Below, one piece after another: positions 6,433 to 13,155 of a stretch of DNA of 64,000 bases. The position numbers and the translations under genes are program-made. The stretch lies in contig NZ_SMDQ01000022.1 in assembly GCF_012911975.1 (NCBI RefSeq), forward strand, positions 1 through 64,000, given 5' to 3'. The stretch is from Nodosilinea sp. P-1105 (lineage in GTDB: Bacteria; Cyanobacteriota; Cyanobacteriia; Phormidesmidales; Phormidesmidaceae). The stretch's first letter is position 1; each line of letters opens with the position of its first letter. A model generated the notes under the pieces. It did not search any database and was not told the origin of the DNA. It was given only the letters and a program-made list of their open reading frames with translations.

Positions 6433-6795
6433 ATGATGCTCAAGTCTACAACCCGTCATGTTCATATCTATACCGCTACGGTGGAGAACAACGAGTTGGT
6501 CCCCAGTGACGATCTGCTGACCCTTGATGTAGACCCTGACAACGAGTTTAACTGGTCCGATCAGGCTCTCCAAGAGGTTTACGGCGAATTTGACCGGCTC
6601 GTGGATGCCGCTGAAGGGGAAGATCTAACCGACTACAATCTGCGGCGCATTGGCTCTGATTTAGAGCACTTCATCAGGCAACAGTTACAGGCCGGGAAAA
6701 TTAGCTATAACCTCAAAACCCGGGCTCTGAACTACAGTATGGGTTTGCCCCAAGTGGTAACGGCTGAGTCCTCAGACGCCGCTGACAGCGAGTAA
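6433..6795 (+). CDS. ndhM: NAD(P)H-quinone oxidoreductase subunit M
   Basis: The 120-aa product (119 if the second ATG is used) matches cyanobacterial NdhM from end to end: [72 protein letters not shown]. NdhM is an oxygenic-photosynthesis-specific subunit of the hydrophilic arm of thylakoid NDH-1, needed for cyclic electron flow and respiration. It is a stand-alone gene, divergent from the aminotransferase. Two consecutive ATG codons (6433, 6436) leave the start open by one residue; homologues favour the second. Confidence 0.96.
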
Positions 6796-6987: not shown

Positions 6988-9294
6988 GTGATTCAGTGCT
7001 TTAACCCGACCTGCCAGGCGGTGGCCACTGGTTTGACCAGTCGTTGTCACGTCTGTGGAACTCCGCTGCTATACCGGTTTTTGCTGGCGGTGGGGGCCGA
7101 TGTGACGCGGGCGAAACTCGGTAGCCTGATAGCTGGTCGCTACCAAGTTTTATCTGACCAGATTTGGCTCGATATCCAACCCTATGGGTCAGTCCCTACT
7201 CTCGATCAAATTCCGCCATTTCTACTGCCCTATTTGCGGCTTTCGGAATTAGCTCAGCACATGCCTCGGCCTTATGCTTATCTCGCCTCTGACGAGAGTG
7301 GCATGCCCAATCCAGTGTTGCTGCTGGATGCGGCACCCCTGGGGGTAGCGGTAGACGATCGCGACCAGATCAAGCCTTACCTGCTGCCTTCCCTGGCGGA
7401 GCGGTGGTCTCAAGGGACCGCCCTGCAACAACTGCATTGGCTGCGCCAAGTGGCGGCCCTATGGACGCCCCTCAACCAGGAACAGGTGGCGGCGACGCTG
7501 CTGGATCTAGACCAACTACGGGTGGATCAGGCGGTGTTGCGATTAACCACGCTCACCGCTGACAGCGATCGCCCCAAGGCCGCAACCCTAACCCAACTAG
7601 GGCAACGGTGGCAGGCCTTGGTCCCCACTGCCCAACCCGAATCGAGGGCTTATTTAGACTGGGTCACCCAGGCCTTGATCCAGGGGGCTATTTCCGCTGG
7701 CACCGAACTAGCAGCTGAGGTCGATCAAGCGATTCAAACCTTGGGGCAGGGGTTGAAGGTGGCCATAGACTGGGTGGCCTACACTGACCAAGGCCCAGCC
7801 CGCGATCGCAACGAAGATGCCTGTTACCCCGAGGCCCAAGTCCAGCAGCAGGTGCTCGCGGGCACGTCCGGCTCCCATGCCCTACCCCTGTTACTCGTCT
7901 GTGATGGCATTGGCGGCCATGAGCAGGGCAAGGTAGCCTCAGAAATGGCCATTCAACGCCTGAGGGAAGAGCTCCTGCCCCTAGGGGAACAGCCCAACCT
8001 CAGTCCAGATATGGTCAGCCAACGGTTCAAGCAGGCGTTGGCCTCAGTCAATGATGCGATCGTCAACCGCAACAATCATGAGCAGCGATCGGCCCGGGCT
8101 CGCATGGGGACAACCGTCGTTGCGGCTCTGGTGCATTTTCCCTATGTCTCCATTGCCCATTTGGGCGATAGTCGAGCTTATCGCATCAGCCCTGATACCT
8201 GTACCCAAATCACCCTGGATGATGATGTGGCCTCCCGAGAAGCCCATCTTGGTTATGCCCTTTACTCTGAAGCGGTACACATGCCTGGGGGCGGTGCATT
8301 GATCCAGGCTCTGGGGATTAGCGACTCAGGCTATCTTTACCCCACCGTGCAACACTTGCTGATTGACGATCCCAGCGTCCTGCTACTGTGCTCAGACGGG
8401 CTATGCGATTACGATCGCGTCGACGCGCTATGGCGCCATACCATCCAGCCTTTGACCAGGGGCCATGGTCCGATTCAGTCCGTCGCCCAAACCTTAATTC
8501 ATGACGCTAACCGACTGAATGGCCACGATAATGTCACCGTCGGGCTGATGCGTTTTATCCCCCAATCTGCCCCACTGCCCACCTTGCCAGGGGCCAGATT
8601 GCGAGCTGCTGGGGCAGGCCGAACCGCCAACTCAGCGATCGCAGTAACGGCCCAGCCCACCGCTGTGCCCACCGCAATTGGAGACCCTACGCCCCCCCCT
8701 CCTAAGCGCTTGCCCTGGGTTACCCTGGGACTAGTCAGCCTTGCCGCTTTACTGACCGCCGGAAGTGCGGCCTGGTTCTACCACCAGCGACAACCCGCAC
8801 CAGCCGCTCTCCGACCTGTAACCCTGTCTTGGCCGTTGGCCAGCCTTGCCGGGGATGAGCTACCGGCAAACGCTATGGCCATCACCGCTGACGTGGCAGT
8901 GGGCTCATTTTGGCAGATTGGATCAGGCCTTGCCCCAGCGGATACCAGCAACCCTCTGCGGTTGACAGCAGCGGTGAATCAGGCCGAAATGGATAACGGG
9001 CGGGTGGTAGCTACCGGCAGTATTGTCAACGTTACCAGTCGGCAAACCACCGCTGACGGCCGCCGCTGGGTGCGGCTACAGGTGTGTTCCATTCCATCTG
9101 GGGCATCTTTAGACCGAGTCCCTACCGAATCTGGTTTACCTCCGGCGGCGGATCTATCTCCGGCTGCTACAGACTTGGAACAGCAGTTGGCGTCACCAGG
9201 GCAACAGGGCTGGGCTAGGGTTAGCCACCTCTACCGCACCGCTTCTGCCCTGGAATCCGTTACTCTGGCCCAGGGGGAAGCCTGTAGGTTTTAG
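6988..9294 (+). CDS. PP2C-type protein phosphatase with N-terminal zinc ribbon, kinase-like remnant and C-terminal membrane anchor
   Basis: The product is 768 aa from a GTG start preceded by GAGGGA; no ATG fits. A four-Cys ribbon (C4, C9, C20, C23) is followed by GRYQVL, the arrangement seen at the N terminus of cyanobacterial Ser/Thr kinases. Residues about 50-250 show a weak kinase-like outline (LQQLHWLRQVAALW..., then DLDQLRV...LRLTTL) with no HRD, DFG or VAIK lysine. The PP2C domain runs from about 265 to 520: DQGPARDRNEDA, CDGIGGHEQGK (metal Asp306), GTTVVAALV, AHLGDSRAYRI, LLLCSDGLCDYD, GHDNVTVGLM. One membrane helix lies at about 577-598, then about 170 aa with an SH3-like look. The metal Asp residues are kept, so it should be active. 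The CHAT-FHA gene starts 43 bp downstream. Confidence 0.9.
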   Translation: MIQCFNPTCQAVATGLTSRCHVCGTPLLYRFLLAVGADVTRAKLGSLIAGRYQVLSDQIWLDIQPYGSVPTLDQIPPFLLPYLRLSELAQHMPRPYAYLASDESGMPNPVLLLDAAPLGVAVDDRDQIKPYLLPSLAERWSQGTALQQLHWLRQVAALWTPLNQEQVAATLLDLDQLRVDQAVLRLTTLTADSDRPKAATLTQLGQRWQALVPTAQPESRAYLDWVTQALIQGAISAGTELAAEVDQAIQTLGQGLKVAIDWVAYTDQGPARDRNEDACYPEAQVQQQVLAGTSGSHALPLLLVCDGIGGHEQGKVASEMAIQRLREELLPLGEQPNLSPDMVSQRFKQALASVNDAIVNRNNHEQRSARARMGTTVVAALVHFPYVSIAHLGDSRAYRISPDTCTQITLDDDVASREAHLGYALYSEAVHMPGGGALIQALGISDSGYLYPTVQHLLIDDPSVLLLCSDGLCDYDRVDALWRHTIQPLTRGHGPIQSVAQTLIHDANRLNGHDNVTVGLMRFIPQSAPLPTLPGARLRAAGAGRTANSAIAVTAQPTAVPTAIGDPTPPPPKRLPWVTLGLVSLAALLTAGSAAWFYHQRQPAPAALRPVTLSWPLASLAGDELPANAMAITADVAVGSFWQIGSGLAPADTSNPLRLTAAVNQAEMDNGRVVATGSIVNVTSRQTTADGRRWVRLQVCSIPSGASLDRVPTESGLPPAADLSPAATDLEQQLASPGQQGWARVSHLYRTASALESVTLAQGEACRF

Positions 9295-9337
9295 CCAATC
9301 TGCCTCCCTTGCTAGGCTTAGTCTTGATCACTGTCTT

Positions 9338-10954
9338 ATGTTTTCGTCTAACTCCCTGACCTTATGCCTAGCTGTGGAACGCCTTTCGGGGTCGAGTGCT
9401 AATCACTACGCCATTTGGGTATTAGACAGCCCTTTTCCCGGTGGGGCGGCCCACCACGATCGCCTCTGGGACGAGACAATGGCCCAGCTTTGGAGTAGTT
9501 GGCAGCAGTTTTTCTCCCTGCGGGAACTGCCCTGCGTCCCCCATGTACCTTCCGCCTTTGTGCCCCAGTTTCACCTAGATGATCTGCTGAACCAGGTGTC
9601 TCCGCCCTCCTCTCAAGCGGGGGGCTACACGGGGCGGTTGATGCAGGGACTGGGCATTAGCCTATGGGAATGGCTATTTGATGGCCCGATTCGTCACACC
9701 CTCGATCGCAGTCAAGGGATTGCCATTGGTCAAAATCGGCCGTTGAAGCTGCGGTTAGACATTCGCGCCCCAGAGCTGATTAGCTTGCCCTGGGAAATTA
9801 TGCAGCCCCAGCCTGGACGCCCGGCCCTGGCCCTGGGACCGCAGATTTTGTTAAGTCGCACCACTGATGCTGTGGATCCTCTACCCCTGAGCGAATTGGA
9901 TACATCCCTACGGATTTTGCTGGTGTTGGGGCAAGATAGCAGTAGCACCGGGCCTGGGGGTGAGCTCCAGTTAGCCCAAGAGGCGGCAGTACTCAAAGAC
10001 TTACTAGAACTGAGTGCCTCTCGCCTGACCCCTCGGCTGGGTAGCCCAGCCCCCTGCCAAGTGCAAACCTTAGTGGAACCAGATCCCAAAACCCTGGTCA
10101 CCACCTTGGAAACGGGGGGATTTAACGTCTTTTTTTACAGCGGGCACGGGGTGCCAGCCCCCGATGGCGGTCTACTGTTTTTGCAATCAGGGGTAACCCT
10201 CAGCGGCATTGAACTGGCCCAGGCACTCTCCCGTAATGGCATTCGTTTAGCTGTTTTTAACACGTGCTGGGGGGCTCAACCTGACCAACAGGGACAAGGG
10301 GTGATTCCTCGCAGTAGCTTAGCTGAGGTGTTGCTCCACCACGGGGTGCCAGCGGTACTCGCCATGCGTGACTCGATTGCTGACGAAGAGGCCCTGAGCT
10401 TCATTCAGGTCTTGGCCCAGGGATTAGCCGAACGGCAGCCCATCGACCAAGCAATGGCTCGGACCCGGCAGCACCTGCTGACAGTGTATCGGTTTAACCA
10501 TGCCGCCTGGACGTTGCCCGTGCTTTATCTGCATCCTCAGTTTAATGGGCACTTGTTGCGTCTACCGGCCCAGGAGGTGACCCAGATTCCAGGGCATGAC
10601 CTGCCCCCAGCGGAAGTGGCGGTGTTGCGATCGGTAGAGCCCCCCCACCGATTAGGCCGCTTGTGTGGTGGCCTAATGCGGGTCGGGCGGCTGCCCGACA
10701 ATGACTTGGTTATTTTGGAACCTTGGGTCTCGGGGCAGCATGCCGAAATCTTTTGCCGAAATCTGACTGGCCCTGATGGTCACGAGCCCTGCTATTACCT
10801 GCGGGATATTTCCCGCAATGGGTCCCATTATTTTGATGGCCACACGTGGCAGCATATCCATCGTCAGGAGGTGCCCCTGGCCCTGGGGACTTTGGTACGA
10901 TTCGGAAGTCTGGAAGGTCAGTTGATGGAATTTACCCTGGAGGGTAATGCTTAG
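9338..10954 (+). CDS. CHAT-domain (caspase-like) protease fused to an FHA domain
   Basis: The protein is 538 aa. After an N-terminal helical region, a CHAT domain (about 130-410) shows the clan-CD dyad: FFYSGHG with His270 and AVFNTCWG with Cys310, plus VPAVLAMRDSIADEEA. The C-terminal FHA domain (about 430-535) has the phosphothreonine-reading pattern VGRLPDNDLV, SGQHAEIF and ISRNGSHY. No signal peptide is visible. The likely role is proteolysis controlled by recognition of a phosphothreonine partner. It lies 43 bp after the PP2C gene on the same strand and is probably co-transcribed, giving a phosphatase/phospho-reader/protease set. Substrates are unknown. Confidence 0.9.
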   Translation: MFSSNSLTLCLAVERLSGSSANHYAIWVLDSPFPGGAAHHDRLWDETMAQLWSSWQQFFSLRELPCVPHVPSAFVPQFHLDDLLNQVSPPSSQAGGYTGRLMQGLGISLWEWLFDGPIRHTLDRSQGIAIGQNRPLKLRLDIRAPELISLPWEIMQPQPGRPALALGPQILLSRTTDAVDPLPLSELDTSLRILLVLGQDSSSTGPGGELQLAQEAAVLKDLLELSASRLTPRLGSPAPCQVQTLVEPDPKTLVTTLETGGFNVFFYSGHGVPAPDGGLLFLQSGVTLSGIELAQALSRNGIRLAVFNTCWGAQPDQQGQGVIPRSSLAEVLLHHGVPAVLAMRDSIADEEALSFIQVLAQGLAERQPIDQAMARTRQHLLTVYRFNHAAWTLPVLYLHPQFNGHLLRLPAQEVTQIPGHDLPPAEVAVLRSVEPPHRLGRLCGGLMRVGRLPDNDLVILEPWVSGQHAEIFCRNLTGPDGHEPCYYLRDISRNGSHYFDGHTWQHIHRQEVPLALGTLVRFGSLEGQLMEFTLEGNA

Positions 10955-11077
10955 TTGCCAAGGCTGTGCTACGTAATTGTACTGAATCGTGCCTGGCTTA
11001 CGGAATTGTAGCAAGTTATGCTGTAGCGTCTATTATCAACCTGATTACCATCCAGTGCATCGTTCATAGATAATCCC

Positions 11078-11701
11078 ATGACTCAGCCATCCTCGCCTTC
11101 TAACCTCCCCTCTACCCCTGCGAATCGTCCTATGGCCGCTGATCACGATTTTGTCTCCCATCTGTTCACCCCTGATGCGCCTTACCCTTGGGATCACGAT
11201 AGTCCCGAGGCCGAGGCGTATCTCGCATCCCTCGATACCGCCGCCGATGAGTTGCTGAATCATCCCACCATTGATGCCACCCTCCGGGCTGGATGGTCCA
11301 CCTGGTCTGAGCAGGTCGAAGCTCAATGGCATGCTGATGCAACCTCGTCATCTACGCCACTGCTGGCTCGCCTTAACCAGCAGTTCCAAGAGCGGGTGCC
11401 CGCCACCCTGCTGCAAACGATCGCCACAACAGCCAGTCACCTCGCCCGCAGTGGTCGTCCCTTGATTGAGCAATTGGTTGGCTGTGTGAACGAGGCCTTA
11501 CCGGGGTGGGAAAGCGATGACCTGGCGGTGTTAGCCCGTCCGCTGGCCTATTCTTTGCGGGATGGTCGCAGTGAAATTCTGGCCCTCAACCTCCGCTCCA
11601 TTTCCCAGGCCGACTGGAATGCCCTTTCCGACATTGAGCAAGCCCGATTAAGCTTAGCGATCGCCTCTGTTGCCCTGAAGGCGGCTGAACAGGAGAATTA
11701 A
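11078..11701 (+). CDS. Conserved hypothetical protein, 207 aa
   Basis: I do not recognise the family. The first 35 residues are Ser/Pro-rich and disordered. The rest is predominantly helical (LASLDTAADELLNH, LLARLNQQFQERVPATLL) and ends in LEQARLSLAIASVALKAAE-like helices. There is no membrane segment, signal peptide or catalytic motif. It follows the CHAT-FHA gene by 123 bp on the same strand, so it could be a partner in that module, but the spacing also allows its own promoter. Its codon use resembles its neighbours. Confidence 0.75.
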   Translation: MTQPSSPSNLPSTPANRPMAADHDFVSHLFTPDAPYPWDHDSPEAEAYLASLDTAADELLNHPTIDATLRAGWSTWSEQVEAQWHADATSSSTPLLARLNQQFQERVPATLLQTIATTASHLARSGRPLIEQLVGCVNEALPGWESDDLAVLARPLAYSLRDGRSEILALNLRSISQADWNALSDIEQARLSLAIASVALKAAEQEN

Positions 11702-11949
11702 CCAAGATCGGCATGTTTAACCATAATCAATCTATTCTAGCCAAGGTCTTGAGTAGGGGTCTAGCTGGTCTGGCCATGGCTCTTTTCTAACCCCCCTGAC
11801 TCAGTCTGTTGCCAGCGCAAACCTCTACAATTCGCTGTGTCGTTGGCTACACAGAACCAGCTTTTCTATAAAGATCTGATCATGCCCCCCTGACATCCCC
11901 TGGATGGCACAGCAATGATGGATAGTAATGTCCCTTTTTGATCACGCCT

Positions 11950-13155
11950 ATGGCCTCTTCTATGCCCGTTTGGTTTTATCGGCAGCAGGCTCGCTACGAC
12001 TATCGGCGGGCCTTGGTCCAACTGAGAAAAGGTAACTTGGATCAGGCCCTAGACTCCTTGTCCAGAGCCCTGGACCACTATCCCTACCCGGCTCAGATTC
12101 ATGTTGAATTAGGGATTGTCCATTGGCAGAGAGGACAGATTGAAGCGGCGATCGCGGCCTTTAGTGAGGCGATCGCCCTTGACCCCACCCAGGTTAGAGC
12201 CTACGGTAACCGAGGGCTGCTGCACTCACTGCAGGGGCAAGTGGCCGCCGCCCTAGCCGATTGGCAGCAAGCCCTAGAGCATCAACCGGGTCACGCCCTG
12301 ATTCACTATAATCGAGGGCTGTTATATCTCCAGCAGCAAGACTATGCTGCAGCCCTGGCTGATTTCGATCAGGCCATTGCCACTGACCCCAACCAGGCCG
12401 AAGCTTACCTGCATCGGGGCAATGTCTATGACCAGTTAGGACGCCAGACGGAAGCTGTCCGAGATTGGGAACTGGCCCTGTGCAACGACCTTAACCTAGA
12501 GCAGGCCAGGCTGAAGTTGAACCAGATACTGCAAGCAAGCGGCGATCGCGCCTTGGCCGAAAAGCTGCAAGTCGCTTTGGATCTAGACCAAATTACGGTG
12601 GTGGCCCGGCAGCAAGCCAGTGAACTCACCGTCGAACTCTCCCGCCCTGTAGGGGTAGGGATCAACTATTTTGCGCTGCCCGATCAGATCCGACAGGTAT
12701 TGATCAGCTGGCAGCCCCTGAACTTGAGAACATTTCAGCTCATCGCTCGGGTTAGTGGCGCTGATCAACGCCCTGGGGTGGTGGAATGGCAAGGGCGATA
12801 CCCTGTGTTTCAGGGACAGTCCTGCCCTTCAGCCCAGTGGTATCGGGTGCTGCTCACGGCCTTTGTGATCTTTCCACCCCTGGGAATTCCGGCCTTGGTT
12901 TACGCCATCAACCTGAAGCAAGCCTACCAACGGGGGGACTACCTGACGGCTGTGCAAGCCTCGAAAACCATCAAGGCCCTATGCCGTGCCGGTGGGGCCA
13001 TTTCCCTAACCTTAGTTACCCTGGTGGCAGGCTACTGGGGATACCAGCAGCTCCATGACTCCAGGGTTAAAGACTTGCCCTCCCAGGCTCAACTCAACCC
13101 TTCCCCTACAGGCCCTGCTGCTAAACAACCGCCTCTGAGTGAGCCTGATGATTAG
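11950..13155 (+). CDS. TPR protein with C-terminal CD225/dispanin-like membrane domain
   Basis: The start was taken at ATG 11950 (401 aa); the frame is open from a TTG at 11938. Residues about 15-185 form five TPRs (ALDSLSRALDHYP, AIAAFSEAIALDPTQVRAYGNRG, ALADFDQAIATDPNQAEAYLHRG). About 185-280 is a soluble spacer. The C-terminal part holds two hydrophobic helices joined by a polar loop, with PPLGIPALVYAINLKQAYQ, RGDYLTAVQASKTIKALC and a second helix to GYWGYQQL. The P-x-x-I/A...GD...A..S...K layout is that of the CD225/dispanin family. A Pro/Ser tail follows. The role is unknown; a TPR platform anchored at a membrane is the simplest reading. The 3' end overlaps the convergent phosphoribosyltransferase by 35 bp. 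Confidence 0.82.
   Translation: MASSMPVWFYRQQARYDYRRALVQLRKGNLDQALDSLSRALDHYPYPAQIHVELGIVHWQRGQIEAAIAAFSEAIALDPTQVRAYGNRGLLHSLQGQVAAALADWQQALEHQPGHALIHYNRGLLYLQQQDYAAALADFDQAIATDPNQAEAYLHRGNVYDQLGRQTEAVRDWELALCNDLNLEQARLKLNQILQASGDRALAEKLQVALDLDQITVVARQQASELTVELSRPVGVGINYFALPDQIRQVLISWQPLNLRTFQLIARVSGADQRPGVVEWQGRYPVFQGQSCPSAQWYRVLLTAFVIFPPLGIPALVYAINLKQAYQRGDYLTAVQASKTIKALCRAGGAISLTLVTLVAGYWGYQQLHDSRVKDLPSQAQLNPSPTGPAAKQPPLSEPDD

Follow-up and report, generated by a model that had tools for sequence, protein, structure and literature searches.

A conserved PP2C, CHAT-FHA and P207 gene unit in cyanobacteria and its possible role as a HetF-type proteolytic switch under phospho-control

Cyanobacteria commonly have both caspase-like proteases and Ser/Thr phosphorylation, yet to our knowledge the two have seldom been linked mechanistically in these organisms. 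The locus treated here contains neighbouring genes for a PP2C phosphatase, for a protein joining a caspase-like CHAT domain to an FHA domain (CHAT-FHA) and for a 207-residue protein (P207), and is located in a stretch of 64,000 nucleotides from Nodosilinea sp. P-1105 (the window; contig C111 of a 6.0-Mb genome). The closest described system is HetF, a putative protease for which mutation of the active site was described to abolish function (PMC8406250) and which is drawn with a transmembrane segment and TPRs beside its CHAT domain (PMC8406250, Fig. 4 legend). HetF is reported in a review as able to cleave PatU3, and the resemblance to the present locus lies in a cyanobacterial regulatory CHAT protease with a dedicated partner (PMC12288457). 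HetF is a protease of heterocyst development and of cell division, whereas CHAT-FHA is encoded in a PP2C cluster and carries an FHA domain. A PP2C and an FHA protein acting together in one phospho-circuit were described for PpkA-PppA-Fha1 of Pseudomonas (PMC6213207). As presented in that source, the set contains its own kinase and its output is Hcp1 secretion, whereas no kinase was found in the cluster described here and the FHA domain is placed on a caspase-like protease. No paper joining CHAT and FHA domains with cyanobacteria or caspases was found among the openly licensed papers that were searched.

The surroundings of CHAT-FHA were compared in 46 further genomes besides that of the window, an orthologue being present in 47 of 57 genomes (52 of 57 if five genomes with only weaker CHAT matches are included). 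The named loci are the best 80 of 415 related stretches, and the counts of neighbours leave out 17 of the 80 upstream and 12 of the 80 downstream, where the flanking DNA is too short. CHAT-FHA is directly preceded by PP2C in 55 of 63 loci and directly followed by P207 in 63 of 68, both of which exceed chance, and ndhM is found at most 5 kb upstream in 50 of 63. The PP2C, CHAT-FHA and P207 genes thus almost certainly form a conserved genomic unit. The earlier note on this DNA had placed four genes in one signalling neighbourhood, and its grouping holds for these three, whose order is kept; it does not hold for the fourth gene, encoding a TPR-CD225 protein, which is found downstream in 14 of 68 loci, i.e., in 14 of the 16 loci of the window's clade (L085-L102) and in 0 of 52 others, and which is thereby ruled out as a member of the unit. 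Its domain composition was correctly described, as Pfam matches the TPRs and the CD225 domain (36.9 bits against a cut-off of 27.1). Three weaker TPR matches scanned elsewhere are TPR proteins with no CD225 among the matches listed (E up to 0.01). Also of note is the combination of TPRs with an IFITM/CD225-type domain in a bacterial protein, which adjoins the trio only in the window's clade.

Joint occurrence was followed in 290 genomes of the class Cyanobacteriia, which are related and hence do not represent independent trials. With the presence of CHAT-FHA set at E < 1e-90, a threshold chosen by us beyond which the strongest match has an E-value of 1.2e-69, CHAT-FHA occurs in 148 of the 290 genomes and P207 in 148, both being present in 147 and each occurring alone in one. 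The genomes with the pair range from 2.5 Mb (G046) to 9.4 Mb (G027), and none of 38 genomes of the phylum outside the class has P207. The two genes lie together at one place in 118 of the 147 genomes, far apart on one contig in 5 and on different contigs in 24. This last group includes assembly breaks, as an example in G036, where the pair is truly adjacent, since the end of CHAT-FHA shares a contig with P207. The genes are certainly apart in at least six of the 147 genomes, i.e., on one contig in G032, G038, G208, G265 and G287, and in G026 as judged from the surroundings of its P207. The surroundings of five moved P207 genes (about 5 kb) contain neither PP2C nor CHAT-FHA nor ndhM, and the moved proteins carry the family's Tyr-Pro-Trp motif in four cases and Val-Pro-Trp in the fifth (L184). 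In G201, which has CHAT-FHA without P207, the contig stops 135 bases beyond CHAT-FHA, in the direction in which P207 would normally follow. In G043, G051, G052 and G146 P207 is absent and the best match to the CHAT-FHA model reaches only E 2e-54 to 1e-69; these weaker CHAT matches were taken as HetF-like by their score to the CHAT-FHA model only.

The pattern was also placed on a MenD tree of 54 out of 60 genomes picked by hand to represent families and contrasts within families (six gave no MenD match); the tree is based on a single gene, some of its branches are long (G034) and 25 of its 51 forks are open. The best tree requires 13 changes of the CHAT-FHA label. Four independent switches fall on branches with good support; in 3 or 4 of these (mean 3.5) P207 changes together with CHAT-FHA, and in none does it change in the opposite direction. 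The clearest contrast is given by the well-supported sisters G208, which carries both genes at a distance of about 550 kb from each other, and G146, which carries neither. P207 is therefore in all likelihood an obligate functional partner of CHAT-FHA, and the near-constant joint keeping and loss of the two suggests an unstudied signalling switch that would work by protein cutting. Pairwise distances of CHAT-FHA, P207 and PP2C, compared at 45 loci that also have NdhM, are correlated with coefficients of 0.93-0.94, or of 0.82-0.84 if NdhM is taken into account, a weak control because this protein is short. These distances also track NdhM (r 0.82) and mainly fit vertical inheritance.

The CHAT domain is recognised by PF12770 with an E-value of 4.5e-19 (69.4 bits against a gathering cut-off of 24) and was matched in 22 of 22 aligned CHAT-FHA members, the alignments using 22 of 47 retrieved rows for CHAT-FHA (A1), 49 of 55 for A2, 57 of 66 for A3 and 43 of 58 for A4. 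Both His270 and Cys310 of the dyad are found in 47 of 47 orthologues and in 80 of 80 named loci, and both domains are present in one protein of 538 residues, as the earlier note had proposed. The closest relative found for the CHAT domain is HetF: the HetF model NF045509 matches with E 3.1e-47 and 161.4 bits, below its curated cut-off of 1200 bits, and the HetF homologue of the same genome (L006) scores 640.1 bits and is likewise below the cut-off. Aligned over 318 columns, CHAT-FHA and L006 are 36% identical, and both residues of the dyad coincide. CHAT-FHA is not HetF proper, as it has an FHA domain where HetF has the membrane segment and the TPRs; in the window protein no TPR match was obtained with Pfam and no transmembrane segment is seen, the highest 19-residue hydropathy mean being 1.28. 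The genome has twelve CHAT matches in 6 Mb, of which CHAT-FHA and L006 are the two studied.

The FHA domain is matched by PF00498 with E 1.1e-9 (39 bits against a gathering cut-off of 20.7), again in 22 of 22 aligned members. The window protein has Arg451, Ser465, His468 and Asn494, which we take to be the residues of the phosphothreonine-binding loops, with the Asn contacting the bound peptide. Among the orthologues Ser465 and His468 are each kept in 80 of 80, Arg451 in 70 of 80 and Asn494 in 14 of 79. A connection between loss of the Arg and loss of the PP2C neighbour was considered and no clear link was seen: the Arg is missing at 5 of 65 loci with an adjacent PP2C, at 2 of 8 without it and at 3 of 7 that lie too near a contig end for the neighbour to be judged. 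A protease gated by phosphorylation would be a reasonable reading of this domain combination, and gating through the FHA domain itself is possible without reaching the level of the probable.

The PP2C protein matches PP2C_2 of Pfam (E 6.3e-9), and its motif residues Asp306, Asp394, Asp470 and Asp514 are kept in 61 of 61 sequences. Models of described phosphatases, the PRK14559 model NF011149 (E 5.6e-69, 233.5 bits, below its curated cut-off of 374) and the Stp1-type model NF033484 (E 9.2e-41, 139.9 bits, below its curated cut-off of 230), resemble it in the PP2C part with intact motif residues, their best stretches covering only this part, whereas the protein described here adds a kinase-like fold, a membrane helix and an SH3-like tail. 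The earlier note had recognised a PP2C with a zinc ribbon and a membrane anchor, and this is borne out by the PP2C_2 match, by Cys4, Cys9, Cys20 and Cys23 and by a hydrophobic helix in 55 of 58 PP2C proteins as judged by hydropathy; it had overlooked the pseudokinase fold and the SH3-like tail, as well as the relationship to HetF and the replacement of the FHA Asn. Zinc-ribbon models of Pfam match 30 of 49 family members (E up to 1), the window copy not being among them.

The first 262 residues of the PP2C protein were modelled with a pLDDT of 94.5 and a pTM of 0.89. All 50 Foldseek matches listed for this model are kinases or pseudokinases, with PknG ranking first (E 1.7e-4, TM-score 0.48, rmsd 11.8) and the PAN3 pseudokinase next, and five of 973 matches pass E 0.001. 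The TM-scores of the Foldseek matches are about 0.3-0.5 with large rmsd, and the VIA alignment represents the stronger support: it gives Z 11.3 to PknG (7mxj) over 188 residues with an rmsd of 3.3, and 50 of 50 matches listed are kinase entries. PknG and PAN3 are thus the closest structural neighbours at a sequence identity of only about 8-14%. In PknG, too, a metal-binding domain precedes the kinase. By our reading of the model topology, which is not a superposition residue by residue, residue 62 stands for the catalytic Lys and is Asp in all 49 sequences, residue 170 stands for the HRD Asp and is replaced in all 49 by Thr, Ser, Cys or Ile, and the DFG position (188) is variable, with Asp in only 2 of 58, suggesting a pseudokinase, which differs from the PknG and PAN3 folds in having no catalytic Lys or HRD Asp and in being fused to a phosphatase. 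The tail, which is probably located outside the membrane, has one Cys in 59 of 59 and another in 57 of 59 of the rows with a residue there; SH3_3 matches it in 9 of 43 members with a best E of 1.1e-4 and does not match the window copy, and no solved structure was matched to the tail by sequence.

P207 was modelled as an all-helical protein (pLDDT 83.5, falling to about 50 over residues 1-20 and to 65 over residues 31-40; pTM 0.60) that is mostly predicted to be folded from about residue 40 onward. Its Tyr-Pro-Trp motif (Tyr 62/67, Pro 62/67, Trp 61/67) lies in a low-confidence loop, and Asp148, Arg154 and Arg161 are kept in 67 of 67. Foldseek gave a best E of 1.4 and VIA a best Z of 5.3, which is below the meaningful level for helical proteins; such a lack of a fold match does not imply a new fold. 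The earlier note had left P207 without a family, and correspondingly Pfam gave nothing above cut-off for the window copy, the weak matches in relatives being restricted to one or two members each (25 of 35 families listed).

These observations are most economically explained by a HetF-like proteolytic switch that has P207 as partner and is under phospho-control, a proposal that we put forward as tentative and just short of probable. CHAT-FHA would be a soluble cysteine protease using His270 and Cys310, and its FHA domain would recruit or answer a phosphorylated partner. The phosphorylation of this partner would be set by the membrane-bound PP2C, with zinc ribbon and pseudokinase inside the cell and the SH3-like tail outside, so that PP2C and FHA domain might belong to one phospho-circuit. 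P207 would be the dedicated partner of the protease, likeliest as its substrate or as a regulator removed by cleavage, by analogy to PatU3 for HetF, and this assignment of P207 may well be right while not amounting to a likelihood. In a further step, the trio might constitute a second widespread HetF-like pathway, in which a transmembrane phosphatase and pseudokinase protein sensing the envelope with its tail controls, via the FHA domain, a caspase-like protease that cuts the obligate P207 to give a signal; we consider this extended version rather unlikely. A link to the envelope or to division, which would derive from the HetF relationship and the SH3-like tail alone, is similarly doubtful.

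Several observations weigh against this account. In G069 an intact PP2C and an intact P207 are separated by 711 bases (L165 7233-7945) containing one weak tblastn match to CHAT-FHA residues 485-533 (37%, E 0.003), which is probably the decayed end of CHAT-FHA; as G069 keeps P207 with only this probable remnant, P207 can outlive the protease. As a natural loss, G069 might reveal how P207 functions once the protease is gone. On the MenD tree four switch pairs are too few for significance. In the FHA domain Arg451 is replaced in 10 of 80 orthologues and Asn494 by Tyr, Phe or Trp in 65 of 79. The expectation of kept Ser, Asn and His is thereby borne out for Ser and His and fails for Asn, making phosphothreonine reading a plausible property of the window protein but a less certain one of the family as a whole; the consistent aromatic substitution at position 494 may mark a changed ligand. 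The N-terminal part of PP2C occurs in 236 of 290 genomes, by which a strict dependence of PP2C on CHAT-FHA is ruled out, and in all of the 14 PP2C regions retrieved from genomes lacking CHAT-FHA and P207, PP2C stands by itself. As PP2C is wider in distribution than CHAT-FHA and P207, it is probably the older element. Finally, P207 has no fold or family match, and therefore its occurrence alone speaks for its role.

An obligate partner might also act without being cut. P207 might be a stable protein on which CHAT-FHA depends in order to fold, to reach its place or to become active, i.e., a cofactor, chaperone or adaptor, the substrate being located elsewhere. The joint occurrence suits any obligate partner, and a mostly folded protein with Tyr-Pro-Trp in a low-confidence loop, as is often the case for docking motifs, would fit such a role; the HetF-PatU3 precedent favours a substrate and nothing else separates the two roles, leaving the cofactor as a somewhat unlikely explanation that deserves consideration. 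The breadth of PP2C leads to another possibility, i.e., that PP2C is an old ndhM neighbour acting alone, which CHAT-FHA and P207 merely adjoin without a shared function. In line with this, ndhM is likewise a conserved neighbour, and in G172 (L176), a genome without CHAT-FHA and P207, PP2C lies directly beside ndhM, so that the two may have been neighbours before the trio arose. However, PP2C still adjoins CHAT-FHA where P207 has moved off (G208, G032), and G146, which is without the pair, has two N-terminal matches with a best E of 1.1e-64, compared to three with a best E of 1.1e-98 in its genus-mate G208. An independent PP2C is judged unlikely.

The earlier note had pointed to defence or cell death with a TPR partner. 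In such an anti-phage or programmed cell death system the triggered CHAT protease would kill the cell, and TPR-CD225 would be target or sensor; CHAT domains are indeed called effector domains of bacterial defence systems in PMC10907252. However, PADLOC families gave no match at E up to 1 for CHAT-FHA, PP2C or P207, and on the TPR-CD225 protein, which is limited to one clade, only one weak generic TPR match (E 0.0093). Moreover, CHAT-FHA is present in half of the sampled genomes (148/290), its position beside ndhM is kept, the distances track NdhM as under vertical inheritance and the nearest relative found is HetF. The defence role is therefore regarded as very improbable, and the HetF-like switch is retained as the preferred account.

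The features of the locus are collected in Table 1. The four genes on the plus strand that had been described earlier are present as open reading frames (ORFs), with intergenic gaps of 43 bp between PP2C and CHAT-FHA, 123 bp between CHAT-FHA and P207 and 236 bp between P207 and TPR-CD225. The row is flanked by ndhM upstream and by a phosphoribosyltransferase gene on the opposite strand downstream (Pfam), and strains of Nodosilinea, Leptolyngbya and Phormidium are among the nearest named relatives. Elsewhere in the window, positions 485-2779 encode a protein of 764 residues with a long Pro/Ala/Thr-rich stretch and weak TPR signals below cut-off.

Table 1. Features of the PP2C, CHAT-FHA and P207 locus and its neighbours (positions in the window).
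Feature	Position	Strand	Basis
ndhM, conserved neighbour, not taken as part of the mechanism	6433..6795	+	PF10664
PP2C phosphatase of 768 aa, made up of the five parts in the next rows	6988..9294	+	ORF, Pfam, NCBIfam
Zinc ribbon of PP2C protein (Cys4, Cys9, Cys20, Cys23)	6997..7056	+	sequence
Kinase-like fold without catalytic residues, PP2C protein residues ~45-255	7120..7752	+	model, Foldseek, VIA
PP2C catalytic domain, residues ~262-525	7771..8562	+	Pfam, NCBIfam, conserved Asp
Predicted membrane helix of PP2C protein, residues 578-596	8719..8775	+	hydropathy
Tail of PP2C protein: two conserved Cys (Cys700, Cys766), SH3-like, probably outside the membrane	8797..9291	+	SH3_3 in relatives
CHAT-FHA protein, 538 aa	9338..10954	+	ORF, Pfam
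CHAT (caspase-like) domain	9656..10510	+	PF12770, 69.4 bits
Catalytic-type His270 of CHAT-FHA	10145..10147	+	conservation
Catalytic-type Cys310 of CHAT-FHA	10265..10267	+	conservation
FHA domain of CHAT-FHA	10679..10906	+	PF00498, 39 bits
FHA loop Asn, codon 494 of CHAT-FHA	10817..10819	+	alignment
P207, helical protein of 207 aa, family unassigned	11078..11701	+	adjacency, joint occurrence
Tyr-Pro-Trp motif of P207, residues 36-38	11183..11191	+	alignment
TPR-CD225 protein, clade-specific neighbour (CD225 at 12850-13023)	11938..13155	+	Pfam

As a summary, the locus offers a compact set uniting a predicted protease, phospho-signalling and a partner that is kept and lost together with the protease. 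If the extended version of the proposed account is true, a bacterial caspase-like enzyme would be switched by Ser/Thr dephosphorylation in about half of the sampled Cyanobacteriia. Moreover, the trio may reveal a general logic of the HetF-PatU3 type that extends beyond heterocyst development.

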